Shown: positions 2,462 to 46,904 of the stretch, one piece after another
How the letters are laid out: the number at the start of each line of letters is the position of its first letter
Numbering within the stretch: the first letter of the stretch is position 1
NCBI RefSeq assembly: GCF_024159085.1
Contig: NZ_JAMZDE010000007.1
Coordinates: 62,001 to 126,000 of the forward strand
Origin: Idiomarina rhizosphaerae
GTDB taxonomy: Bacteria > Pseudomonadota > Gammaproteobacteria > Enterobacterales > Alteromonadaceae
DNA: 64,000 bases
Reading direction: 5' to 3'
Position numbers and translations under genes: made by a program
The notes under the pieces: generated by a model
Databases searched by the model: none
The model's input: the letters and a program-made list of their open reading frames with translations, nothing else
Told to the model about the DNA's origin: nothing

Positions 2462-3451
2462 CTAGTTTTCCACTTCCTGCTCAGATGTCGCTGCAGCCTT
2501 TGTCTGACGAGATTTATAAACAAAAGGTAAAACGCTCTTTAACTGGCTTAGTAAGTCTTTTTGCAGTTTTAAATAGCCCGGCTTTTTGACCTTTTCGAAT
2601 GGCATGGGTCGACATAATTCAATCACTTGATAGCCCAGTCTGGCGGTAAGCAAACCGGCTCCTAAACCTTGTCCGGCCCGGGTTGATAAACGCGTTAATA
2701 GTTCAGCACTAACCCACTGAGCGCCTAAATCTACCGCGACTTCGCTAAGCCCTGCGTAGACAATATTGGCAAACACCTGACGCCATAAGCGAACTCTGGC
2801 CCAGTACCCCAGTTTTACGCCGTACAATTCGGCAATACGCGATATCATCCGCTGGTTACGCCACATAACGATAAGCATATCCAACAAAGCAAAGGGGCTC
2901 ACTGCAACCATAGCCGCAGCTTCTGCCGCCCAGCGACTGATAATACGGGTAGCCTGCTGGTCTATACGGCTTAAGACGTCCACTTCAAAACGTTCACGTT
3001 CTTCATCCGCAGACCAGTACGGTTGTTTAATTTGCTGCCAGCGATGTTCTAAGTCCGGATGTTGCAGAAGCTGTAATTGTTGCTCCGGCTTAGGAGCTTC
3101 AGACTGCTTTTTCCAGCGCCGTTTCAACTTTTGCAGCAACCAAGTTTCGCGCACCATAAAGCTCAATAATGCCAACGCAATAACGCCAAAACCAACAGCC
3201 CATAAACTGCCTAAAAATATGTTTTGTTGAAAACGCTCAATAACCATCAATACCGATTCAATAACGGCGGCGGTTAAAGCAACAACTAACCCCAGTGCCA
3301 GCCACTTACCCCAACGACCAGAATTTACGCCCGCAGCTGCTTGACCGGAACCCGGTTCATGTCCGGCTTGCTCAGGCATACTATCGGTATCAGAAACTTC
3401 AACTGCCGGTTCGTCCACCGAATAGTAAGTTAATTTGCGCGGATCACTCAT
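2462..3451 (-). CDS. ycjF: YcjF/TIGR01620 family inner membrane protein (DUF697)
   Basis: This 329-residue membrane protein is the partner of the YcjX GTPase in the phage-shock regulon. It has a polar N-terminus of about 45 residues and two hydrophobic segments near residues 49-70 and 80-100. A basic linker and a C-terminal DUF697-type region follow, in which PFALLDMLIVMWRNQRMI is the recognisable stretch. Its start overlaps the end of ycjX by 4 bp, so translation is probably coupled. Its molecular function is not established; a role in envelope-stress maintenance is inferred from the operon. Confidence 0.9.
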   Translation of the reverse strand: MSDPRKLTYYSVDEPAVEVSDTDSMPEQAGHEPGSGQAAAGVNSGRWGKWLALGLVVALTAAVIESVLMVIERFQQNIFLGSLWAVGFGVIALALLSFMVRETWLLQKLKRRWKKQSEAPKPEQQLQLLQHPDLEHRWQQIKQPYWSADEERERFEVDVLSRIDQQATRIISRWAAEAAAMVAVSPFALLDMLIVMWRNQRMISRIAELYGVKLGYWARVRLWRQVFANIVYAGLSEVAVDLGAQWVSAELLTRLSTRAGQGLGAGLLTARLGYQVIELCRPMPFEKVKKPGYLKLQKDLLSQLKSVLPFVYKSRQTKAAATSEQEVEN

Positions 3452-4821
3452 TTGAGTTTATCTCCCAGAACGTATTCAAGTAGCTGATCCAGCCGGATAT
3501 GCGGCAGAGGTGAATTCTGTGCGGTGAAGCCGGGATAAAACTGCGGATAAATATAGCCTTGTTGCCAGTCTGCAGCGGTTGGTATGGCATTAGGTACCTC
3601 TGGTGCACCAACCCGCACAAACTCACGGTTCTCATTAATGCCGTCCAGAACCGTCGTACCGTTACTTAATTTCTTAATTTGACTGGTGGCAATGCCGGCA
3701 ACACTAAATACCTGGTGCGGTATTTGATCAAACTGTAGCTCCTGACGCTGCTTCTGCGTCATAACACGCAGTAATTCCGTCAATTTTTGATGGTCTTGCG
3801 GGGCAATACTGTCAGCTTTCGTCGCAACCAGCGCGACTTTATCAATAACCGGCGACATCAGCCGCTTAAGCAAGCTGTTATTACCATAAGAAAAGCTCTT
3901 CATCAGTTCATTTATTGCCAACTGTAATTCGGCAAAATGATGCTCACCATTCTGCAGCGCCTGCAGGACATCAACTAACACAACCTGCCGGTTAAAGTGC
4001 TTAAAGTATTTTTGATAAAACGGAGTCACCACATGCTGCTGATAGTAACGGTATTTCTCGCGCAGACGTTTCGCCCAGGCATCGGGTATTGCTTGTGACA
4101 ACGGCCAGGGGAAAAACTCCAGCGCAGGAGCTCCTTCCAGTTCTCCCGGGAGCACCATACGTCCGGGCTGCAACAATAGTAACTTTTGCTCCCGGCACTG
4201 GCGTAAAAAAGTGCGATAACCCGATGCCAGCTCACGTAACTGCTGCTCAGCTTTATCCTCTGACGCGGCGTTCGCAGCCGTCTGCACCTTAGTCAACCAG
4301 CTCTCTGCCAGCTTATGTCGTAGCTCAGCTTTCAGTAAGCGCTGCTGTTGCTGACTCCACTCGTCATAACTGAGTTGCAATAGAGGTAAATCCAGTAGCC
4401 ATTCGCCCGGATAATCGATTAAGTCGAGCGTTAACTTGCGCGTATCAAGCACCCTGCCCGCCAACCCTCGATGCGGCTTATATTTTATTTCGACCCGTAT
4501 TTCACTCACATCGCGTGTCGACTGTGGCCACCGGGGCACATCTGTGGTTAAACAGTCTATTGCCCCTTCGTAGTCAAAACGCGAGACTTGCCAGTTACTG
4601 CTGGTGTGCAAACGACAGCCATTAAGACGCTGTTGTTGCTTCACTTTAAAATAAGGCAATTGCTGCGTTTCGTTCGCATATAATAGCTGCTCAAGTATAC
4701 CGGTGATTAACGCGGTTTTTCCCGCTCCACTTAACCCCGTTACAGCCAGACGTATATGACGATCAAACCCGCGATGAATAACGTCGCGGGTTTGATGTTG
4801 TAGCTTTTGAAAACGGCTCAC
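3448..4821 (-). CDS. ycjX: YcjX family P-loop stress protein (DUF463)
   Basis: This 457-residue predicted nucleotide-binding protein is of the YcjX family, structurally related to small GTPases. The Walker A motif is GLSGAGKT at residues 29-36. LDLIDYPGEWLLDLPLL matches the switch/Walker B region, and KVALVATKADSIAPQDH carries the TKAD guanine-specificity motif. It overlaps pspC and ycjF by 4 bp each, which places it firmly in the psp operon. In Escherichia coli ycjX and ycjF belong to the PspF regulon near pspABCDE; here they are fused to pspABC as one transcription unit. Function beyond stress association is unknown. Confidence 0.92.
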   Translation of the reverse strand: MSRFQKLQHQTRDVIHRGFDRHIRLAVTGLSGAGKTALITGILEQLLYANETQQLPYFKVKQQQRLNGCRLHTSSNWQVSRFDYEGAIDCLTTDVPRWPQSTRDVSEIRVEIKYKPHRGLAGRVLDTRKLTLDLIDYPGEWLLDLPLLQLSYDEWSQQQQRLLKAELRHKLAESWLTKVQTAANAASEDKAEQQLRELASGYRTFLRQCREQKLLLLQPGRMVLPGELEGAPALEFFPWPLSQAIPDAWAKRLREKYRYYQQHVVTPFYQKYFKHFNRQVVLVDVLQALQNGEHHFAELQLAINELMKSFSYGNNSLLKRLMSPVIDKVALVATKADSIAPQDHQKLTELLRVMTQKQRQELQFDQIPHQVFSVAGIATSQIKKLSNGTTVLDGINENREFVRVGAPEVPNAIPTAADWQQGYIYPQFYPGFTAQNSPLPHIRLDQLLEYVLGDKLK

Positions 4822-5455: not shown

Positions 5456-6130
5456 TTAAGAGTCTTGTTTGGTTTTTGAGCTCATACGGGCACGCAATGC
5501 TTCCAGCTCGTCATTTACTTTACTCTCGTTTTCCAGCTCTGCAAATTCGTCACGTAATGTCCGTTTACCCATATCATATGATTCAACCTGGGCTTCTAAA
5601 TCATCGATTTTGGCTTCGTAACGGTCAAACCGCTGCATCGCGTCATCGACTTTGCCACTATCGACCTGTTGTTTAACCTGCAAGCGGCTGCTGGCTGCCT
5701 TCTGGCGCATCAGAATCGCTTTTTGGCGAGACTTCGCATCAGCCAGCTTTTCCTGCAGTTGACCAATTTCGTCATTCAGCTTGTCCAGGCTTTCATTAAC
5801 ACGATCCATTTCCTGCTGTAATGAGTCAACGCCCTGCTGTGCTTTTTGCTTCTCAACTAATGCCTGGCGCGCTAAATCGTCACGCTCTTTGGTTAACGCC
5901 AGCTCAGCTTTTTTTTCCCAGTCCTGAACTTCGTTTTCCATCCGTTGCTGCTGACGCTGAATGTCCTTCTTTTCAGCTAACAGGCGCGCTGACGTAGAGC
6001 GTACTTCAACTAACGTATCTTCCATTTCCTGAATAATCAGGCGTACCATTTTTTGCGGATCTTCGGCTTTATCCAATAAAGAATTGATATTGGAGTTCAC
6101 GATATCGCTAAAACGTGAAAAAATACCCAT
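5456..6130 (-). CDS. pspA: Phage shock protein A (IM30 family)
   Basis: PspA is a 224-residue coiled-coil peripheral membrane protein. It inhibits the enhancer-binding protein PspF when unstressed and oligomerises on damaged membrane under stress. It starts with MGIFSRFSDIVNSNINSLL, the amphipathic N-terminal helix of the family, and continues as long heptad-rich helices (LIIQEMEDTLVEVRS onward). The ATG at 6130 is preceded by GAGGT. A longer in-frame extension to 6181 would add 17 unrelated residues and is rejected. It is the first gene of pspA-pspB-pspC-ycjX-ycjF and has a sigma-54-like promoter upstream. Confidence 0.96.
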   Translation of the reverse strand: MGIFSRFSDIVNSNINSLLDKAEDPQKMVRLIIQEMEDTLVEVRSTSARLLAEKKDIQRQQQRMENEVQDWEKKAELALTKERDDLARQALVEKQKAQQGVDSLQQEMDRVNESLDKLNDEIGQLQEKLADAKSRQKAILMRQKAASSRLQVKQQVDSGKVDDAMQRFDRYEAKIDDLEAQVESYDMGKRTLRDEFAELENESKVNDELEALRARMSSKTKQDS

Positions 6131-6176
6131 AATAATGACCTCATACTGGTTTAATAAACAACTCGATGATTTATTA

Positions 6177-6193
6177 TTCAAGTATCAGGCCAA
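6177..6193 (-). promoter_or_regulatory. Probable sigma-54 promoter of the psp operon
   Basis: Read on the minus strand the site is TTGGCCTGATACTTGAA. It has the invariant GG of the -24 element and 11 bases from TGGC to TTG, exactly the spacing of the sigma-54 consensus. The -12 element reads TTGA instead of TTGC, a deviation. It lies about 47 bp upstream of the pspA start, opposite pspF, the cognate activator in other bacteria. The position and spacing are seen; its use is inferred. Confidence 0.6.
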
Positions 6194-6244
6194 CTTTTAT
6201 TTTCTCTATAACAAACTGTTTTATAAATACTTTTTATGATTTAT

Positions 6245-6271
6245 ACGAATTCCGCCCTTGCGGGAGTTCGT
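6245..6271. promoter_or_regulatory. Inverted repeat between pspF and pspA, candidate PspF enhancer
   Basis: ACGAATTCCGC and GCGGGAGTTCGT form an imperfect inverted repeat around a CCTT centre. It sits about 50-80 bp upstream of the sigma-54-like promoter and about 50 bp before pspF, where upstream activating sequences of PspF are expected. No T-run follows it on either strand, so it does not look like a terminator. Its role as enhancer or autoregulatory site is an inference. Confidence 0.4.
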
Positions 6272-6320
6272 AAAATAAACTAATAATTAGCAAAAATAAC
6301 TATAATATAAGGCATTCGAC

Positions 6321-7397
6321 ATGCGCCCTGAGCGAAAACCCGACAACCTCATCGGACAATCCAACAGCTTTTCCGATGTGTTGGAACAAGTGTCGCAAAT
6401 TGCTCCTCTCGATAAGCCCGTATTAATTATAGGCGAGCGTGGTACCGGTAAAGAGCTTATTGCGGCGCGTTGTCATTACCTGTCCAGACGCTGGCAACAA
6501 CAGTACATTACCCTTAACTGTGCAGCACTGAATGAAAACTTACTCGACAGTGAGCTCTTTGGTCATGAAGCTGGTGCTTTCACCGGAGCCGCAAAAAAAC
6601 ACGAAGGTCGTTTTGAACGCGCTGACGGAGGCTCTCTGTTTCTTGATGAATTAGCCAATACGTCCTTGCGAGTTCAGGAAAAGCTGCTGCGGGTTATTGA
6701 GTACGGAGAATTTGAGCGAGTCGGTGGCCGCCATTCAGTTAAAGTCGATACTCGCCTCATTGCTGCTACTAATGAAGACCTTCCATCGCTCGCTGCCAAA
6801 GGCAAATTTCGTTCAGATTTACTGGATCGCCTGGCATTTGATGTCATCACCCTGCCGCCTTTACGCGAACGCCGTGACGACATTATGTTACTTGCTGAGC
6901 ACTTTGCTATTTCCATGGCTCGCGAAATGGAACTGGAGTTATTCAGTGGCTTTTCCGAGAAAGCACGTAAGACCTTGCTTGAATATCATTGGCCCGGTAA
7001 CGTACGCGAGCTTAAAAACACGGTAGAACGTAGCTTATATCGGCTGGGAAATGGGCATGTGCCTATTCACGACATTATCATTGACCCATTTAACAGTCCG
7101 TTCCGGCCAAAAGCTCCGGTAACAGAAAAAACGGCACCGCAACAGCCAATAGCGGATGAGCAAAGCAACGCTGAAAGTAATGAAATAATTGATATGCCGA
7201 AATTAAACGCTGAACAGCCAATAAACTTTAAGCAGAAATCGCAAGAGTACGAAATTGATGTCTTGTCACAAGCCTTACGTTTATGTCAGTTTAACCAAAA
7301 GAAAACAGCTAATTTTCTTGGACTGACTTATCATCAGTTACGGGGATACTTAAAGAAGTATCAGTTATTGGAAGGGGCTTCTGCAGCTAATGATTAA
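6321..7397 (+). CDS. pspF: Psp operon transcriptional activator (sigma-54 enhancer-binding protein)
   Basis: PspF is an AAA+ activator that drives sigma-54 transcription of pspA and is held inactive by PspA. It lacks a receiver domain, as PspF does, and starts directly with the AAA+ module. Walker A is GERGTGKE (about residues 38-45). The sigma-54 contact loop is GAFTGA (about 86-91). Walker B is GSLFLDEL, and an arginine-finger region follows (FRSDLLDRLAFDVITLPPLR). A Fis-type helix-turn-helix is at the C-terminus (KKTANFLGLTYHQLRGYL). A low-complexity linker of about 60 residues makes it slightly longer than enteric PspF (358). Its 3' end overlaps sapA by 8 bp. Confidence 0.95.
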   Translation: MRPERKPDNLIGQSNSFSDVLEQVSQIAPLDKPVLIIGERGTGKELIAARCHYLSRRWQQQYITLNCAALNENLLDSELFGHEAGAFTGAAKKHEGRFERADGGSLFLDELANTSLRVQEKLLRVIEYGEFERVGGRHSVKVDTRLIAATNEDLPSLAAKGKFRSDLLDRLAFDVITLPPLRERRDDIMLLAEHFAISMAREMELELFSGFSEKARKTLLEYHWPGNVRELKNTVERSLYRLGNGHVPIHDIIIDPFNSPFRPKAPVTEKTAPQQPIADEQSNAESNEIIDMPKLNAEQPINFKQKSQEYEIDVLSQALRLCQFNQKKTANFLGLTYHQLRGYLKKYQLLEGASAAND

Positions 7398-34797: not shown

Positions 34798-35592
34798 ATG
34801 TTTGAAAAGAAAAAAGTTTGGCTTGGTGTTGGTAGCGTTCTGGCCACCACCGTAGCAGCATCACAGGTAACAGCTGCGCCACTGACACAACCAGGCGCAG
34901 CGCCTTCTATGTTCATGGCGGCCCCTATGGCAGAAGGCGAAATGGCAGCCCCTGAAATTGATTTAAACACCAATGACACCGCTTTTCTGGCGCAGTTGGG
35001 TTTTATTCGCGGCCATTTATGGGTGGGAATGAAACTTTACGAGCAAGGTCACATTGAAATGGCCAAAACTCATATGAAACACCCGGGTGACGAGCTCTAC
35101 AGTGGCCTCACTGAGGCATTTGAAGCACGCGGCTTACCCGGATTTGCCGAACCGTTAAATACCCTGGCGGAAAGTGTCATTAATGATAAAGATGAAGACA
35201 CGGTTATGAGCAACTACAAGGCTCTGCTGGACTCTATCAGCGCTAATGAACCTATTGCTGAGATGTCAGCTAAAGACGTCATACTGAGTGTTTCATCGAT
35301 GCTAATGGTAGCCGCCGACGAATACGCTATTGGCATTCAGAATGGCGAAGTCGCTAACGTGCACGAATATCAGGACGCCATGGGCTTTAAAGAAATTGCG
35401 CTCGAACGTTTAAACCGCATTAATGATAAAGAAGCAAGCAAAGCTGAAGAAGCCATTAGCGAAACCCGCAAGGTCATCGGTAATCTAGAAAACCTCTGGC
35501 CTACCACAACTCCAGAAGGCAAATTCGAGGGTGATCCGAGTAAAATTTACGGTGCTGCCTCTCGTATTGAACTGGAAGCACGCAGTATTTAA
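34798..35592 (+). CDS. Unrecognised exported helical protein
   Basis: I do not recognise this 264-residue protein with confidence. A signal peptide (residues 1-26, ending AASQVTAA) is followed by a Met/Ala/Pro-rich linker (APSMFMAAPMAEGEMAAPE). An all-helical domain with many conserved-looking His, Glu and Asp residues follows (FIRGHLWVGMKLYEQGHIEM, then HMKHPGDELYSGL). The charge pattern and periplasmic location recall imelysin/EfeO-type helical proteins, but no signature clinches it. It is divergent from a PKHD dioxygenase with a Fur-like site between, and 135 bp upstream of the nitrite reductase operon with an NsrR-like site between. Iron or copper handling is a guess. Confidence 0.85.
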   Translation: MFEKKKVWLGVGSVLATTVAASQVTAAPLTQPGAAPSMFMAAPMAEGEMAAPEIDLNTNDTAFLAQLGFIRGHLWVGMKLYEQGHIEMAKTHMKHPGDELYSGLTEAFEARGLPGFAEPLNTLAESVINDKDEDTVMSNYKALLDSISANEPIAEMSAKDVILSVSSMLMVAADEYAIGIQNGEVANVHEYQDAMGFKEIALERLNRINDKEASKAEEAISETRKVIGNLENLWPTTTPEGKFEGDPSKIYGAASRIELEARSI

Positions 35593-35727: not shown

Positions 35728-36120
35728 ATGAGCATTCAATCTCTTTGCAAAGTATCACTTATTGCCGTGTCATTAGCTGGCTTGTTTATGAGCCAGTCAG
35801 CCAACGCAGGCGAAGGCGAAAACGTTTACAAAAAATATTGTCAGGCATGTCATCAACCAAATGGCAAAGGCATGCAGGGCGTATTTCCTCCGCTGGCAGG
35901 AAATACAAATATCAAAGATAACCCCGACTACATAGCTAAGACAATTATCAATGGTAAGTCCGGCGCGCTAACCGTTAACGGAACAAATTACAACGGAGCT
36001 ATGCCGCCCATGGGTTATCTGAAAGACGCCGATATCGCAACCTTAGTTAACTACATCAATACCGATCTTGCAGGCGGCAGTGAGACTATCACAGCCGAAG
36101 CCGTTGCCAGTTTGCGTTAA
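35728..36120 (+). CDS. Periplasmic c-type cytochrome, probable electron donor to NirK
   Basis: This 130-residue monohaem cytochrome c has a signal peptide of about 27 residues (ending QSANA). Haem is attached at C38-C41-H42 (CQACH), and the axial Met is in GAMPPMGYL near residue 91. It is the first gene of a four-gene run with nirK, 33 bp upstream of it, so passing electrons to NirK is a reasonable inference. A GAAGGTG ribosome site precedes the ATG, and an NsrR-like operator lies just upstream. Confidence 0.92.
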   Translation: MSIQSLCKVSLIAVSLAGLFMSQSANAGEGENVYKKYCQACHQPNGKGMQGVFPPLAGNTNIKDNPDYIAKTIINGKSGALTVNGTNYNGAMPPMGYLKDADIATLVNYINTDLAGGSETITAEAVASLR

Positions 36121-36153: not shown

Positions 36154-37311
36154 ATGAAAACTCTAAGCTTATCAATTATCAGTGCCTCTCTTCTGGCCGC
36201 TATGGCGTCTGCGTCAGCTCCGGTTAATGCTGAAGAGCTTAGCCTTAAGCACGACAGCGAGTATGTCATTGATGGTAAAATTTTTGGCTTACCAGAAGCT
36301 AAAATTTACCGTGAAGACTACAATGGTCCGGCGGTTGTTGGCGACTATCTTACTCAAGTTCCAAACATAGCCAAGCTCGACTATGAAGGTAACAAAACTC
36401 ACGATGTACGCATGGATGTGTTCTCTCAGAAAATAGAAGTTGCACCGGGAGTAACCTATTCGGCCTGGACATTCGGTGGCTCAGTACCCGGTCCTGTATT
36501 GCACGTGCGTGAAGGCGACCGTGTTATCTTCAAAATGAAAAACCGCTCTGACGAAGAAGTGACTATTACTAAGCCAGTTAAAAATGGGGCTCCGTTCATT
36601 CAGCAACTGCAGGCCAACGGTTATCAGAACAACCAGCCTGTAGTTAACCCAATGCCCCACTCTATGGACTTCCATAGTGGTACCGTCGCTGCTGAAGACA
36701 AATGGCGTACTATTTCTCCGGGTGAAACTATTGAGTTTGAATGGATAGCCAATTACGCGGGTACTTATATGTATCACTGCGGTACTTCCAGCGTACTCAT
36801 GCATACAGCTATGGGACAGTACGGCGCCGTTGTGGTTTCCCCTAAAGATGGCTACCCAACTGACAAAGACGTTGATAAAGAATTCGTTCTGGTGCAATCA
36901 GAGCACTATCTGGAAGAAGCATCTGAAGGTAACTACATCTATAACCACGGTGCAGCTTTAGACCGCCAGCCAAGTCATGTGACTTTTAACGGACATGTTG
37001 CAGCACTTAGCGATAATCCTTTACGCGCAGACGAAGGTGACCGAGTGCGCTTACATGTGTTAAACGCAGGTCCGTCAGGCACTTCCAGCTTCCACGTAAT
37101 TGGTGCCATTTTTGACCGCGTCTGGTACGAAGGTGACCCGCGCAACGAATGGTATGGCATGCAAACCGTGCTGCTGGGTGCCAGTAACAGCGCAACAATT
37201 GAATTTATTGTTCCGGAAGAAGGCATCTATAAGCTGGTCGATCACGAATTTGCTGATGCAGAGCGTGGCGCAGCTGGCGCATTAATTGCCGGTCCGCGTA
37301 AAGAGAAATAA
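36154..37311 (+). CDS. nirK: Copper-containing nitrite reductase
   Basis: This 385-residue periplasmic enzyme reduces nitrite to nitric oxide and closely follows the AniA branch of NirK. A signal peptide (ending ASAPVNAEE) precedes two cupredoxin domains. Type-2 copper ligands are H174, H208 and H364; catalytic Asp172 (HSMDFH) and His314 (SSFHVIGAIFD) are present. Type-1 ligands H169, C209 and H217 are present, but the axial Met position (C-x7-H-x4-M) is Gln222 in MHTAMGQYG; M220 is two residues early. I chose ATG 36154 behind AAAGGAAAA; an upstream TTG is rejected. The genes after it, a NirV-like protein and a Sco protein, support a maturation module. Confidence 0.93.
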   Translation: MKTLSLSIISASLLAAMASASAPVNAEELSLKHDSEYVIDGKIFGLPEAKIYREDYNGPAVVGDYLTQVPNIAKLDYEGNKTHDVRMDVFSQKIEVAPGVTYSAWTFGGSVPGPVLHVREGDRVIFKMKNRSDEEVTITKPVKNGAPFIQQLQANGYQNNQPVVNPMPHSMDFHSGTVAAEDKWRTISPGETIEFEWIANYAGTYMYHCGTSSVLMHTAMGQYGAVVVSPKDGYPTDKDVDKEFVLVQSEHYLEEASEGNYIYNHGAALDRQPSHVTFNGHVAALSDNPLRADEGDRVRLHVLNAGPSGTSSFHVIGAIFDRVWYEGDPRNEWYGMQTVLLGASNSATIEFIVPEEGIYKLVDHEFADAERGAAGALIAGPRKEK

Positions 37312-37321
37312 GGGGAAACTT

Positions 37322-38074
37322 ATGGTTAAGTGGCTTGGAGTTGCAGGTGTTTTATTATCACCGTTAGTGCTCGCCGATCCGGTTCTGATCAATGGTGGTA
37401 CTTTCGAACCTCCGGTCTTACTGGACAAAGAGCGCCTAAGTATAGAAATGGACAGTTTCATGCTGGACGCAACCCCTGTCACTAACCAAGAGTTTCTGGA
37501 ATTTGTCATTGAACAACCTCAGTGGCAGCGAGACAACATCGCTGCCCTATTCCATGATGGAAATTACCTGAAGCATTGGGACGATAATACCGGATTTGCT
37601 AAAGGCAAAGAAAATGAGCCAGTCACTTATGTTTCCTGGTTTGCCGCACGCGAATACTGCTCCGCACAAGGTGGCCGTTTGCCTGGTCTTAACGAGTGGG
37701 AGTATGCGTCGGTCAAATATCGGCAACAGCAGAACATCAGCGATGATGACTATGCCCGCAACCTGTTTGCCTGGTACAGCCAGCCACACAGTGCGAAACA
37801 ACAGACGGTAGACCCAAATGCTGACCAGTTGATGCACATGCACGACCGGGTCAACGAATGGGTAGACGACTACCAATTATTACTAACCAACGGCGATGAC
37901 GTCGATTTGCTCTCCGGTTCTTGTGGCGACGGAGCACGCTTTATGTCCAGTTTTAGTAACGCCAATTACGCCACATTTTTCCGTTATCAGTCGCGCAGTG
38001 ATTACGCCCCGCAAAGTGCTACCAGCACTATGGGTTTTCGTTGCGCGTACGACCTGGAGAACGACCATGAATAA
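37322..38074 (+). CDS. nirV: NirV-like formylglycine-generating-enzyme (SUMF1) domain protein
   Basis: This 250-residue exported protein of the FGE-sulfatase/SUMF1 fold has a signal peptide (MVKWLGVAGVLLSPLVLA). Its fold markers are DATPVTNQEFLEFV, PVTYVSWFAAREYCSAQGGR and STMGFRCAYD. The paired cysteines that make true formylglycine-generating enzymes catalytic are not obvious. NirV proteins accompany nirK in several denitrifiers, with no settled function; the position 10 bp after nirK makes this the best name. Its end overlaps the Sco gene by 8 bp. Confidence 0.82.
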   Translation: MVKWLGVAGVLLSPLVLADPVLINGGTFEPPVLLDKERLSIEMDSFMLDATPVTNQEFLEFVIEQPQWQRDNIAALFHDGNYLKHWDDNTGFAKGKENEPVTYVSWFAAREYCSAQGGRLPGLNEWEYASVKYRQQQNISDDDYARNLFAWYSQPHSAKQQTVDPNADQLMHMHDRVNEWVDDYQLLLTNGDDVDLLSGSCGDGARFMSSFSNANYATFFRYQSRSDYAPQSATSTMGFRCAYDLENDHE

Positions 38075-38711
38075 ATTGCTAAAATTGACCGCCCTGGCCT
38101 CTTTGATCTTTGCTGCCCAGTCTTTTGCGCAGGATCATTCGCATCACGATATGCACAAGAATCAGACAGCTAACGATCACAGTAATCATACGGCAATGAA
38201 CGCAGCAGAGGTCTCTCACTCCGAGTCGGTATACCAATTGAATGCGACCTGGAACACACATAAGAATAGCGAACTCAAGCTTTCAGAACTTGAAGGGCAG
38301 CCAGTTATTCTTTCCATGATTTATGGCAGTTGCACCACCGCCTGCCCAGTCTTGGTCCATGATGTAAAACGCTTATACAGCAAGCTGCACGAAGATACTA
38401 AACAACAAGTTAAGCTCGTAATGGTGAGTTTCGACACCGATCGCGATACACCCGAGGCACTCGCTGACTATGTTAAGCAATACAAGCTTAACAACGACAA
38501 CTGGCTGTTTCTGAACGGTTCGGAGCAGGATATCAGAACCTTAGCTACAGTACTTGGCGTGAGGTATCGCCAGCGTCCCGACGGTGATTTTGATCACAGC
38601 AATTTGATCACTATTCTCGATAAACAAGGACTCATTGTTGAGCGAATTGAGGGTCTGAGCCAGCCTATGGAAGAGCCTGCTGAAATTGTTAATAAGCTAG
38701 CGAAACAGTAA
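38067..38711 (+). CDS. Sco1/SenC/PrrC-type copper chaperone
   Basis: This 214-residue thioredoxin-fold protein has an N-terminal signal or anchor (residues 1-20) and a His-rich segment (DHSHHDMHK, DHSNHT) that probably gathers copper. The Sco motif is C-X3-C in GSCTTACPVLV, with the conserved His in DGDFDHSNL. Sco proteins deliver copper to cytochrome oxidase CuA or other copper sites; here the operon points to NirK. The ATG at 38067 follows GGAGAACG. Confidence 0.92.
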   Translation: MNKLLKLTALASLIFAAQSFAQDHSHHDMHKNQTANDHSNHTAMNAAEVSHSESVYQLNATWNTHKNSELKLSELEGQPVILSMIYGSCTTACPVLVHDVKRLYSKLHEDTKQQVKLVMVSFDTDRDTPEALADYVKQYKLNNDNWLFLNGSEQDIRTLATVLGVRYRQRPDGDFDHSNLITILDKQGLIVERIEGLSQPMEEPAEIVNKLAKQ

Positions 38712-38944: not shown

Positions 38945-40659
<1,715 letters not shown>

Positions 40660-40660
<1 letters not shown>

Positions 40661-42162
40661 TGTCAGTACCTGTCGTATGGACCGTCGCTGGTTCTGACAG
40701 CGGCGGTGGCGCAGGCATTCAGGCGGACTTGCACACGTTCCGCAGTCTGAAGGTACATGGCTGCAGTGTCATAAGCACAGTGACCGCTCAGAACTCTGTT
40801 GAAACCACCGGGTTATTCCCGTTAGCTGCTGACGCCATTCGTCAGCAGCTGGAATGCCTGCAACAGGACATGCCCCCTGTTGCGATAAAAGTTGGGTTGC
40901 TCAGCAACAGACAGCATCTACAAGCGGTGGCTAACTTTTTAAAGCAGTGGCCTGATACCCTTCCCCGACCTTTCATGGTTTGGGATCCAGTGGTTGTCAG
41001 CACTCAGCAGGATCAGTTGTCTGAACTCAAACCAGAACACTGCGCGAAGTTACTCCCACTGGTTGATATTATCACCCCAAATTTGAATGAGCTCAGTTGG
41101 TTGAGTGGCTTGAGTGTTAACGATGAGAGTTCAATGTGTCGCGCCGCAGAACAACTCTTTCATGCCGGGCTGCCCCGAATTCTGGTAACAGGCTCCGATT
41201 TTGGTCGCGCCGATGAAATATCTGACTATTACCTTAGCACTAATGAGCATATTCAGTACATTCAGCAGAAGTTGAAAACAAAACACAGCCACGGAACAGG
41301 TTGTACTTTGTCTTCTGCTATTGCGGCGGTATTAGCGCATGATTATCCACTTGAGGATGCCATTACGGTAGCTAATGCTTATGTGCATCAAGGCTTACTT
41401 CAAGCCAAAGGTATAGGCCGCGGACCCGGTCCGGTGGCTCATACACACTGGCCACAGCAAATTAAATATTTTCCAAAAATTGAAACGCCAGAGTTGCCCT
41501 ATATCTATGGGGAATTCCCGAGGTTAAACCAAAACCCAGGACTCTATCCCGTAGTAGATTCTTATGAGTGGATAGAAAAGCTTTTAAAACTCGGTATTAA
41601 AACGCTTCAGCTGCGTATTAAAGATGTAGATGACCCGCAGCTAGAAACCGCTATTAAAAAAAGCATTCAGCTGGCAGAGCAATATTCAGCACAGCTGTTT
41701 ATTAATGACTACTGGCAATTAGCCATTAAGCACAACGCTTATGGCGTTCATTTAGGCCAGGAAGACTTAACGGAAGCCAACCTTAACGCTATTCAGCAGG
41801 CGGGTCTGCGGCTGGGCATTTCCACTCACAGCTACACCGAGTTATTGATCGCCAACGCCTATAAGCCCTCTTACATCGCGTTAGGTCATATCTTTCCAAC
41901 TCAGACCAAGGCGATGCCCTCTAAACCGCAAGGTTTGGAGCGACTACGCCGCTATGTGTCGTTACTGGCGCCAACGACTATACCGACAGTCGCTATTGGC
42001 GGTATTTCTTTAGAGCGCGTAGCTACCGTAACAGCTACCGGCGTTAACGGCATAGCGGTTGTTAGCGCGATTACTGCTGCGAACGATGTCGAACAAGCTG
42101 TTCATCAATTACTGACTGCAATGGACGCTAAAGTTGAAGTCGGGGTCGCTCATGCTAAATAA
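40660..42162 (+). CDS. thiDE: Fused HMP-P kinase / thiamin-phosphate synthase (ThiD-ThiE)
   Basis: This 500-residue bifunctional enzyme joins two thiamin steps. Residues 1-265 are ThiD, with [20 protein letters not shown] and the anion-hole [14 protein letters not shown]; they phosphorylate hydroxymethylpyrimidine phosphate. Residues about 290-495 are ThiE, with [27 protein letters not shown] and the phosphate loop VAIGGIS; they couple pyrimidine and thiazole. A linker of about 25 residues lies between. It overlaps thiC by 1 bp and thiF by 11 bp. Confidence 0.95.
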
Positions 42163-42910
42163 CGAGCAACTTCTGCGCTACAGCAGTAACCTTCTGATGA
42201 AAGAAATAGGCGAAGTTGGACAACAGCGTTTGCTCAAAAGCCATGTTTTAATTATTGGTTTGGGCGGTCTTGGTTGCCCAGCGAGTCAGTATCTGGCGTC
42301 ATCGGGCGTTGGGCAAATCACACTGGTCGATCACGACACCATAAGCCTCAGCAACTTACAGCGGCAAACACTCTATTCCAGCGATGATATTGGCTTGTCC
42401 AAGGCGCGGCAAGCTGGTCATTCTTTGTCGCAGTTAAACCCGGACATCCGTATAACCGCTCTTGAAGAGCAAGCCTGTGAAGACAACCTGGATGCACTCA
42501 TTAAACAGGCCGATTTAGTCCTCGACTGCACCGACAATCGCGAGACCCGATACCTGATCAACCACAGCTGCTACCGACTGAATACGCCGCTAGTTTCTGC
42601 TGCGGCACGCGGCTTTAACGGGCAAATTATCGCGTTAAACCCGGAGCATTCGCACGGCTGTTATCAGTGTCTCTATCCCGACAATGTTAATGAACCTCTG
42701 AACTGCAGTAATGCCGGCATTGCAGGTCCTGTTGTCGGCATTATGGGGGCCAGTCAGGCACTACAGGCAATTAATTATTTTACCGGGCATGAGCTTAACT
42801 GGGGTTACCTGCAAACCTTCAATGGCTTATCGCAAAACTGGCAACAACTCTCTTTACCCCGGACCGCTTCGTGCCCTGTATGCGGAGGTAAAAATGCGCG
42901 TTCAAGTTAA
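42152..42910 (+). CDS. thiF: Sulfur carrier protein adenylyltransferase ThiF
   Basis: This 252-residue E1-like enzyme adenylates the C-terminus of ThiS. It has the nucleotide loop [19 protein letters not shown] and the arginine motif NLQRQTLYS. Asp is present in [11 protein letters not shown], and two zinc-binding pairs are CYQC and CPVC. The ATG at 42152 lies within the end of thiDE; an earlier TTG is rejected. Its end overlaps thiS by 17 bp. Confidence 0.94.
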
Positions 42911-43094
42911 TGACAAACATTTTGAAATCACAGAAAAAACCAATTTATCGCAGCTATTGTCCGCTCAGAATATCGATACCTCGGCCGTTGCCGTCGCCAT
43001 GAACGGACAGATTATACACCGCGAACAATGGCAACAGACTGAGCTTAAAGACAACGATACTATCACCCTTGTTCAGGCCGTTGCCGGAGGTTAA
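42894..43094 (+). CDS. thiS: Sulfur carrier protein ThiS
   Basis: This 66-residue ubiquitin-fold sulfur carrier ends in the required VAGG, whose terminal Gly is thiocarboxylated. The ATG at 42894 follows a strong GGAGGT within thiF. It feeds sulfur to ThiG. Confidence 0.95.
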
Positions 43095-43096
43095 CC

Positions 43097-43867
43097 ATGC
43101 TGAGAATAGCCGATCGTAATTTTCATTCCCGCTTACTCATAGGTTCTGGCAAATACAGTAGCGCGGATATTATGCAGAAATCCCTTGCAGCTTCCGGTAG
43201 CGAGTTAGTAACGCTGGCGTTAAAGCGCGTTGAGCTTGAACGACCTACTGACGACATTGTCACGCCCATAAAAAATTTGGGTTTACAGCTACTACCCAAT
43301 ACCTCCGGTGCAAAAACCGCACAAGACTCTATTTTTGCTGCGCGCCTTGCCCGTGAAGCTTTAGACACCCACTGGCTTAAACTGGAAATACACCCCGACC
43401 CCAACTATTTGCTACCGGACCCGATAGAAACCCTAAAAGCCGCGGAGGCTTTGGTAAAAGAGGGCTTTACGGTACTACCCTACTGCGGTGCTGATCCGGT
43501 ATTGTGTAAACGCTTAGAGGAAGTTGGCTGCGCGGCAGTTATGCCGTTAGGTGCGCCCATAGGTTCAAATCAGGGGTTGTTAACACGGGATTTTCTGCGA
43601 ATTATTATCGAACAGGCATCGGTACCGGTCATTGTCGATGCAGGCATTGGAGCACCAAGCCACGCCGTTGAAGCCATGGAAATGGGCGCTGACGCCGTAT
43701 TGGTAAATACCGCGATAGCTACTGCGAATGATCCTGTCGCTATGTCAAAAGCCTTTCGCGATGCCGTTATTGTTGGACGCCAGGCCTTTGAAGCAGGCTT
43801 AAGTCAAAATGCTTCATTAAAAGCCACAGCGTCCAGCCCGTTAACGGAATTTCTGGAGTCATTATGA
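43097..43867 (+). CDS. thiG: Thiazole synthase ThiG
   Basis: This 256-residue TIM-barrel enzyme makes the thiazole phosphate of thiamin from deoxyxylulose phosphate, dehydroglycine and ThiS-thiocarboxylate. Its blocks include [51 protein letters not shown] and [20 protein letters not shown]. It starts 2 bp after thiS and overlaps thiH by 4 bp. Confidence 0.97.
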
Positions 43868-44956
43868 GCTTTTACACTGTCTGGGAGCAAACCAACTGGG
43901 ATGATACCCGCCTGCAGCTTTACAGTAAAAACGCCGCTGACGTTGAAACCGCTTTAAACAAGAAGCATCTGAATACCGGTGATTTTATGGCTTTATTGTC
44001 GCCGGCAGCAGAGCCTTATCTGGCCCTTATGGCAGAGCGTTCGCAGCAACTAACCCGGCAGCGTTTTGGTAATACCCTGCACCTGTTTATTCCGCTGTAT
44101 TTATCAAACCTGTGTGCTAACGATTGCAGCTACTGCGGCTTTTCCATGAGTAACCGCTTAAAGCGAAAGACCCTGTCGCCAGCTGAAATCGAGCAGGAAT
44201 GTCAGGCCATAAAAGCCAAAGGTTTTGATACCTTGCTGGTGGTTACCGGCGAGCATGAAACCAAGGTAGGTATTGATTATTTTCGTCAGGCGCTACCTAT
44301 TATCAAACGCTATTTCAGCTATGTGATGTTTGAAGTGCAACCATTGGCTACCCATGAATACGCAGAATTACGCACGTTGGGTCTGGACGCGGTTATGGTC
44401 TATCAGGAAACTTATCAGCCCGCTACGTATGCTAAACACCACTTAAAAGGAAGAAAACGTGATTTCCGCTGGCGGCTTGAAACACCCGACCGTCTAGGGA
44501 AATGCGGTATCGATAAAATTGGCCTGGGATCGCTGATTGGGCTGGAGGACTGGCGTATCGACAGCACCTTTACCGCCATGCATATGGATTATCTGCGACG
44601 ACGTTACTGGCGCAGCCGTTACTCGCTGTCATTTCCAAGGCTACGTCCTTGTGCCGGAGGTGTCGATAACGCACTCACCATTTCCGATAAACAACTGGTT
44701 CAGTTAATTTGCGCCTACCGGTTGCGGTTCCCGGATGTAGAGCTCAGCCTTTCGACACGCGAACAGCAAGCGCTTCGTGATGGGTTATTCCGTTTAGGTG
44801 TAACTTCAGTCAGTGCTGAATCAAAAACTCAGCCAGGCGGTTACGCCAACGAGCAACAAGAGCTGGAACAGTTTTCGATAGACGATGACAGACCAGTCAG
44901 TGAAGTGGCACAAGCAATAAAGGCGAGAGGATTACAACCGGTATGGCAGGACTGGC

Positions 44957-46904
<1,948 letters not shown>

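Follow-up and report, generated by a model that had tools for sequence, protein, structure and literature searches.

A predicted NirK-type copper nitrite reductase of Idiomarina rhizosphaerae with glutamine at the axial position of its type-1 copper site

Stellacyanin-type cupredoxins have a low potential and are single-domain electron carriers, not enzymes. The axial ligand of their type-1 copper is a glutamine (PMC4059628). A glutamine site is also already known, and functional, in a copper nitrite reductase: in the NirK of the hot-spring bacterium Thermus scotoductus SA-01 (TsNirK, PDB 6hbe), the oxygen of Gln130, five residues after His125, is on the core type-1 copper, and the enzyme is described as active and blue (597 nm), with a turnover of 65 per s and a KM of 27 µM (PMC6400189). 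Although usual for NirK, an axial methionine is thus not defining. The nature of this ligand is linked to the type-1 potential, which matters for the driving force of nitrite reduction. In a laccase, the M460Q exchange is reported to lower the type-1 potential from 357 to 258 mV (PMC6487685), and PMC13324648 cites a rise of 96 mV for a Met-to-Leu exchange in AxNiR.

We describe here a nirK gene of the marine bacterium Idiomarina rhizosphaerae, found in a stretch of 64,000 nucleotides (hereafter the window, meaning the whole of the DNA that was analysed), the product of which has a glutamine in place of the axial methionine. A published account of the glutamine of the clade to which it belongs, or a measurement on any member of that clade, was not found in the open-licence literature.

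Copper-site residues and predicted fold

The gene (36154-37311, + strand, as for all genes and residues given below) encodes 385 residues from an ATG, with a signal-peptide-like start, and the motif in its translation is HCGTSSVLMHTAMGQYG. By sequence, the nearest solved relatives of the protein are the Geobacillus NirKs (best E 1.4e-63). The alignment with one of them (3wkq) is ungapped over the type-1 loop, which reads CGTSSVLMHTAMGQYG here and CGTKPVLQHIANGMHG in Geobacillus, so that Gln222 (codon CAG, 36817-36819) occupies the position of the axial Met. Cys209 and His217 follow the spacing C-x7-H, Met220 and Gln222 lying three and five residues after His217, respectively.

Conservation was read from an alignment of 51 rows, composed of 49 of the best 80 loci of a one-genome-per-species search (see below), a second Fodinibius gene and the window gene. 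The equatorial ligands of the type-1 copper, His169 (36658-36660), Cys209 and His217 (36802-36804), are invariant in all 51 rows. So are the type-2 triad of His174, His208 and His364 (37243-37245), the last of which would, by analogy with NirK structures, be provided to the neighbouring subunit of a presumed trimer, and the catalytic residues Asp172 (AspCAT) and His314 (HisCAT, 37093-37095). Asp172, Phe173 and His174 are encoded at 36667-36675, and His208 and Cys209, which make up the His-Cys bridge, at 36775-36780. At position 222, the usual axial Met of NirK is missing, with Gln in 33/33 rows of the clade and Met in 18/18 other rows. The preliminary description of this DNA had noted that C209 and H217 fit the expected spacing with a Gln at axial position 222, and that H174, H208, H364, D172 and H314 are retained; the first point is confirmed by both alignments and the second holds in every aligned row, with H169, unlisted there, as the first type-1 His. 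It had also suggested looking at whether the Gln is conserved in a clade, and this is indeed the case, for all 33 aligned rows and for 42 Gln loci that fall in one clade. A sequencing error or chance can be ruled out as the origin of Gln222, the Gln being conserved at 42 loci of other genomes.

The AlphaFold2 model of the protein (mean pLDDT 90.8) has the two-cupredoxin fold of NirK, as seen by superposition on the Geobacillus structure 9kws. The 50 best rows are all NirKs, whether by Foldseek, where Geobacillus comes first, or by VIA-align, where Geobacillus 9kws, with an rmsd of 1.4 over 269 residues and a Z of 36.1, is tied with AniA 5ue6 (rmsd 2.7 over 291 and Z 37.0).

Distribution and phylogeny of the glutamine site

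The host genome (2.87 Mb, 9 contigs) has a single match to the NirK query. In a sample of its family, 22 of 196 genomes have a match, and the 24 places listed there consist of eight of its own type, all with Gln and including the gene itself, 14 Met NirKs and two that are not NirK-like at the site. Even within the genus the gene is patchy, being present in three genomes and missing from five listed ones of the family sample. Widening the sampling to the order (295), class (369) and phylum (398), with a threshold of E 1e-40, brought in one further Gln gene, in G752. A wider search of one genome per species (84,980 species) gave 210 relatives, the best 80 of which were analysed: by motif, 42 loci have Gln and 37 have Met, and the 80th (L151), missed by the motif, has Met. 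As more distant relatives lie outside these best 80 of 210, the counts do not give the frequency of Gln in NirKs as a whole. By title, the Gln loci of the best 80 belong to Idiomarina, Pseudidiomarina, Aliidiomarina, Rheinheimera, Marinimicrobium, Wenzhouxiangella and Alkalilimnicola, and also to Balneola, Gracilimonas, Fodinibius, Aliifodinibius, Rhodohalobacter, Trueperaceae and a Gemmatimonad; several members of the clade are named strains.

A quick tree was computed from 132 rows (86 Met, 45 Gln and 1 Leu), after dropping identical rows and removing by hand L003, L005, L033 and L040 as near or same copies, L001 being the window's own place and L022 and L024 not being NirK-like at the site. 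A branch with an SH-aLRT support of 100 (no bootstrap) has all Gln rows on the same side, and the Gln clade contains no Met protein. The adjoining rows are Met proteins, many of which have longer reading frames, and three of these neighbours (L043, L044 and L058), viewed whole or in part, have a cytochrome c-like CxxCH domain at their C-terminus. The one Leu row of the 132 is a NirK-like protein (L047, match 1501-2163) whose axial residue is Leu (HISHGLYG).

The relation with the Thermus glutamine site was addressed by a second tree of 66 rows, made of 61 hand-thinned rows of the 132 and five plasmid rows (three Thermus near-copies, one Deinococcus and one Halobaculum). A Thermus thermophilus plasmid protein aligns with TsNirK at 850 bits over 443 residues and shares with it the motif HTMGGQ. 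The Gln clade is recovered with a support of 99/95 and the three Thermus rows fall apart from it, so that Gln requires two changes. Forcing all Gln rows together, and thereby placing the clade with TsNirK-like proteins, is rejected by the AU test (p-AU 0.00808), a value to be read with the long-branch warnings, with the group having been named after the first tree was seen and with an order of changes that depends on the root. From these sequence comparisons, Gln in this clade probably has an origin separate from that of Thermus.

Two further features accompany Gln. The residue directly after the type-1 His, Thr218 (36805-36807) in the window gene, is Thr in 45 of 48 Gln rows, the three near-identical Thermus rows included, and in 0 of 88 Met rows. 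The exceptions are two Trueperaceae (L106 and L108), with Val, and the earliest branch of the Gln clade (L114), with Met. Since this earliest branch is without Thr, Thr may postdate Gln; it could help to position the Gln side chain. The other feature is a clade-specific insertion just before the first type-1 His (36562-36648, borders approximate): the spacing between N130 and H169, 8-18 residues in the 18 Met rows, is 38-67 in the 33 Gln rows, 27 of which have a spacing of 39, the insertion making the Gln proteins typically about 21-31 residues longer in this region. A helix is predicted inside it, at residues 147-154 of the AlphaFold2 model. In RpNiR, two residues just before the first type-1 His are described as contacting the donor haem, their mutation being without significant effect on activity (PMC13324648). 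By analogy with these contacts, the insertion may lie near the donor face.

Gene neighbourhood, likely electron donor and expected pathway

Directly upstream of nirK lies a gene for a monohaem cytochrome c (35728-36120, PF13442), the likely electron donor; in the PDB it is matched best by the cytochrome domain of 2zoo, a three-domain NirK, and then by the 3ziy group. That a free cytochrome c should be closest in the PDB to a fused NirK cytochrome domain looks as if such an operon had received a different NirK core. Downstream are a gene for an FGE/SUMF1-domain protein (37322-38074, PF03781, ATG start), NirV-like in that we take NirV to be an FGE-type protein, and one for a SCO1/SenC copper chaperone-like protein (38055-38711, PF02630). 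Farther downstream, 38954-45006 presumably holds thiamine biosynthesis genes (a thiC-like gene and the ORFs that follow it). NirV is reported in about 61% of NirK genomes (PMC4770552), and an FGE/NirV-like neighbour is therefore commonplace.

The putative donor is not the same throughout the clade. Searching the 42 Gln loci with two query proteins detected a cytochrome c gene upstream at 19 and downstream at one (L112), an azurin-like gene at seven, and no donor-like gene close by at 15. The azurin-like cupredoxin genes are downstream of the Gln NirK gene (L098-L101, L104, L114 and L115; for instance L100:9143-9694 and L114:7224-7715), and their products could be alternative donors.

Upstream of the cytochrome c gene, 34798-35592 encodes a secreted-looking protein of 264 residues, for which the Pfam and NCBIfam searches gave no match; relatives of it are found beside nirK at five of 91 loci, some of which are the same place (L064, L065, L075, L077 and L078). 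A possible FNR-type box near these genes was also considered and rejected: the window contains three one-mismatch matches (at 396, 34152 and 55708), for 2.6 expected by chance, and the nearest is about 640 bases before the 264-residue ORF and 1,560 before the cytochrome gene.

The host genome also encodes a relative of the quinol NO reductase (qNor), 75% identical to the qNor found beside the Gln gene of Rheinheimera, which was the query (PF22085 and COX1 families). Matches to qNor near a Gln gene were obtained in Rheinheimera (L070/L110) and, at 50%, in G752 (L071), and qNor is near the Gln gene in just one of the 42 named loci. Neither narG nor a true nosZ was found in the host genome, the lone weak nosZ match (18.7 bits) falling inside this nirK. 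As narG was not found, nitrite would come from outside or from another route.

Alternative readings and comparison with known systems

Three readings of the protein itself compete with that of a nitrite reductase with a Gln-ligated type-1 copper. A shifted loop could bring Met220 (36811-36813), or another Met, to the copper and make of it an ordinary Met site, and a copper-bound M220 was the case that the preliminary description had named against its own proposal. Met220 is indeed common in the Gln clade (31 of 33 rows of the 51-row alignment) and rare in the Met rows (1 of 18). However, two Wenzhouxiangella loci have Gln at 220 and still have Gln at 222, a Met-type relative (L121) has Met at both positions, the type-1 loop is ungapped in the alignments (3wkq and 51 rows), and TsNirK uses the Gln at His+5 and has a Gly at His+3. 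Binding of M220 is thus unlikely on the evidence of the Wenzhouxiangella and L121 sequences, which led us to reject it as a replacement ligand, and an ordinary Met site as a whole seems extremely improbable. Alternatively, Gln222 might not bind at all and leave the type-1 copper three-coordinate or water-bound; this is very unlikely, as an unconstrained residue should vary over time, whereas Gln222 is invariant in the clade (33/33), and as the Gln of TsNirK binds copper at the matching place. Finally, annotation could suggest a two-domain oxidase or another copper protein, and not a nitrite reductase: Pfam matches multicopper oxidase domains only, and the TIGR02376 score (189.7 bits) is below the NCBIfam equivalog annotation threshold (296.3). 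This cut-off is no fair boundary, since the Thermus relative of the active TsNirK scores only 154; five other Gln members score 179.8-201, two Met-type relatives 183 and 193, and the Fodinibius Met copy 352.3. Against an oxidase stand the single type-2 His triad with AspCAT and HisCAT in 33/33 clade rows and the absence of the His-x-His pairs of a trinuclear cluster, a single His being seen by eye in each motif of the 51-row alignment (SMDFHSG, YMYHCG and LVDHEF). The NirK identity of the 50 best structural rows by both methods, FGE-Sco neighbours resembling those of Met-type nirK loci and the qNor of the genome point the same way, and we hold another function to be highly improbable. Gln-type nirK genes may nevertheless be labelled merely as multicopper oxidases, and automated annotation may miss such nitrite reducers.

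A further reading concerns the cause of the substitution and not its nature. The preliminary description had proposed that the paired cytochrome c and Sco protein could reflect the Gln, which would then be an adaptation to these partners. Among the best 80 of 210 relatives, FGE and Sco genes follow nirK at 36 of 38 Gln-clade loci with room and at none of the 33 nearest Met loci, once loci with fewer than 1500 bases downstream (4/42 Gln and 5/38 Met) are set aside and a weak FGE-like match, upstream and on the other strand at the Met locus L141, is left out of the count. This link, strong at first, was undone by further Met loci and by Fodinibius. Of 52 further Met/Leu loci, viewed with flanks of only about 1500 bases and including one place twice (L013 and L040), 24 have an FGE match, all of them Met, and 19 of these also have Sco. 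Fodinibius roseus (L100) has both a Met NirK-cytochrome c fusion (2516-3952) and a Gln NirK (5983-7113), each with its own FGE and Sco, and offers a natural pair for comparison. Conversely, L112 and L114 have a Gln NirK with neither FGE nor Sco beside it, and the donor-like gene differs between lineages of Gln loci. Since Met loci share these neighbours and donors vary, Gln is tied to neither Sco, FGE nor one type of donor; an adaptation to the cytochrome c and Sco pair is quite unlikely, and that part of the preliminary description is not supported.

We thus favour, with high confidence, a periplasmic two-domain NirK with a type-1 copper ligated by Gln222, reducing nitrite to NO with electrons from a cytochrome c; the conversion of nitrite into nitric oxide is in itself very likely. 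The type-1 copper would be held by H169, C209, H217 and, axially, by the side-chain oxygen of Q222, in a stellacyanin-like manner as in TsNirK. The small cytochrome c encoded upstream would supply electrons to this copper, and the bridge formed by C209 and H208 would carry them on to the type-2 copper. The ligands there would be H174, H208 and, from the adjacent subunit, H364, and protons would come from D172 and H314. The NO formed could be reduced to N2O by the quinol NO reductase, whose gene lies elsewhere on the genome. With Gln as the axial residue, the type-1 potential would be lower, a decrease of about 100 mV being plausible by analogy with the laccase and AxNiR exchanges, and the protein would be blue rather than green. 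Gln would then be a fixed property of the copper site of the clade, and would not have arisen in response to one donor or to Sco.

When compared with known systems, the Idiomarina protein is closest in sequence to the Geobacillus NirKs (3wkq, 9kws and 3wi9), which are also close structural matches, have two domains and share the other ligands and AspCAT; they differ by their axial Met, and the 3wkq alignment shows no such insertion. AniA and the three-domain RpNiR and PhNiR (5ue6, 1kbv, 3ziy and 2zoo) match the structure as well as Geobacillus does, and the free cytochrome c finds its best match in the fused cytochrome domain of 2zoo/3ziy; these proteins have an axial Met too, and RpNiR and PhNiR carry their cytochrome as part of the same chain. 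With stellacyanin, the likeness is limited to the axial Gln of the type-1 copper and the predicted low potential, a single-domain carrier being compared with an enzyme.

TsNirK shares with the Idiomarina protein the NirK core, the His2-Cys-Gln type-1 site with Gln at His+5, and the Thr right after the His, a match of positions from which the same ligation is predicted here. It differs in having a Ser in place of AspCAT and a Val in place of IleCAT, in its C-terminal cupredoxin domain and in its Cys-x9-His spacing, whereas the Idiomarina protein combines Asp and Ile with two domains, a Cys-x7-His spacing and the insertion before the first type-1 His. The reading frame of the latter stops at residue 385, past the second domain, and lacks the third domain of TsNirK, and the Ser is confined to the three Thermus rows, all 45 other Gln rows having Asp. 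This two-domain, AspCAT-keeping NirK is apparently a new form, of separate origin, of the already known Gln-ligated NirK. The broader proposal, for which we see roughly even chances, is that a stellacyanin-like Gln type-1 site evolved twice, here together with AspCAT and the insertion, mostly in salt-loving bacteria, with a lower potential and different donors, and with Thr after the copper His in most members of both lineages. TsNirK is the only characterised Gln NirK that we found. In this enzyme the change of ligand comes with the loss of the catalytic Asp and with an additional domain, so that it does not show what the ligand does by itself. The clade described here swaps the ligand and keeps the other catalytic residues. 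If the two-origin reading is true, it would provide a clean natural system in which the axial ligand could be studied apart from the loss of AspCAT that accompanies it in TsNirK.
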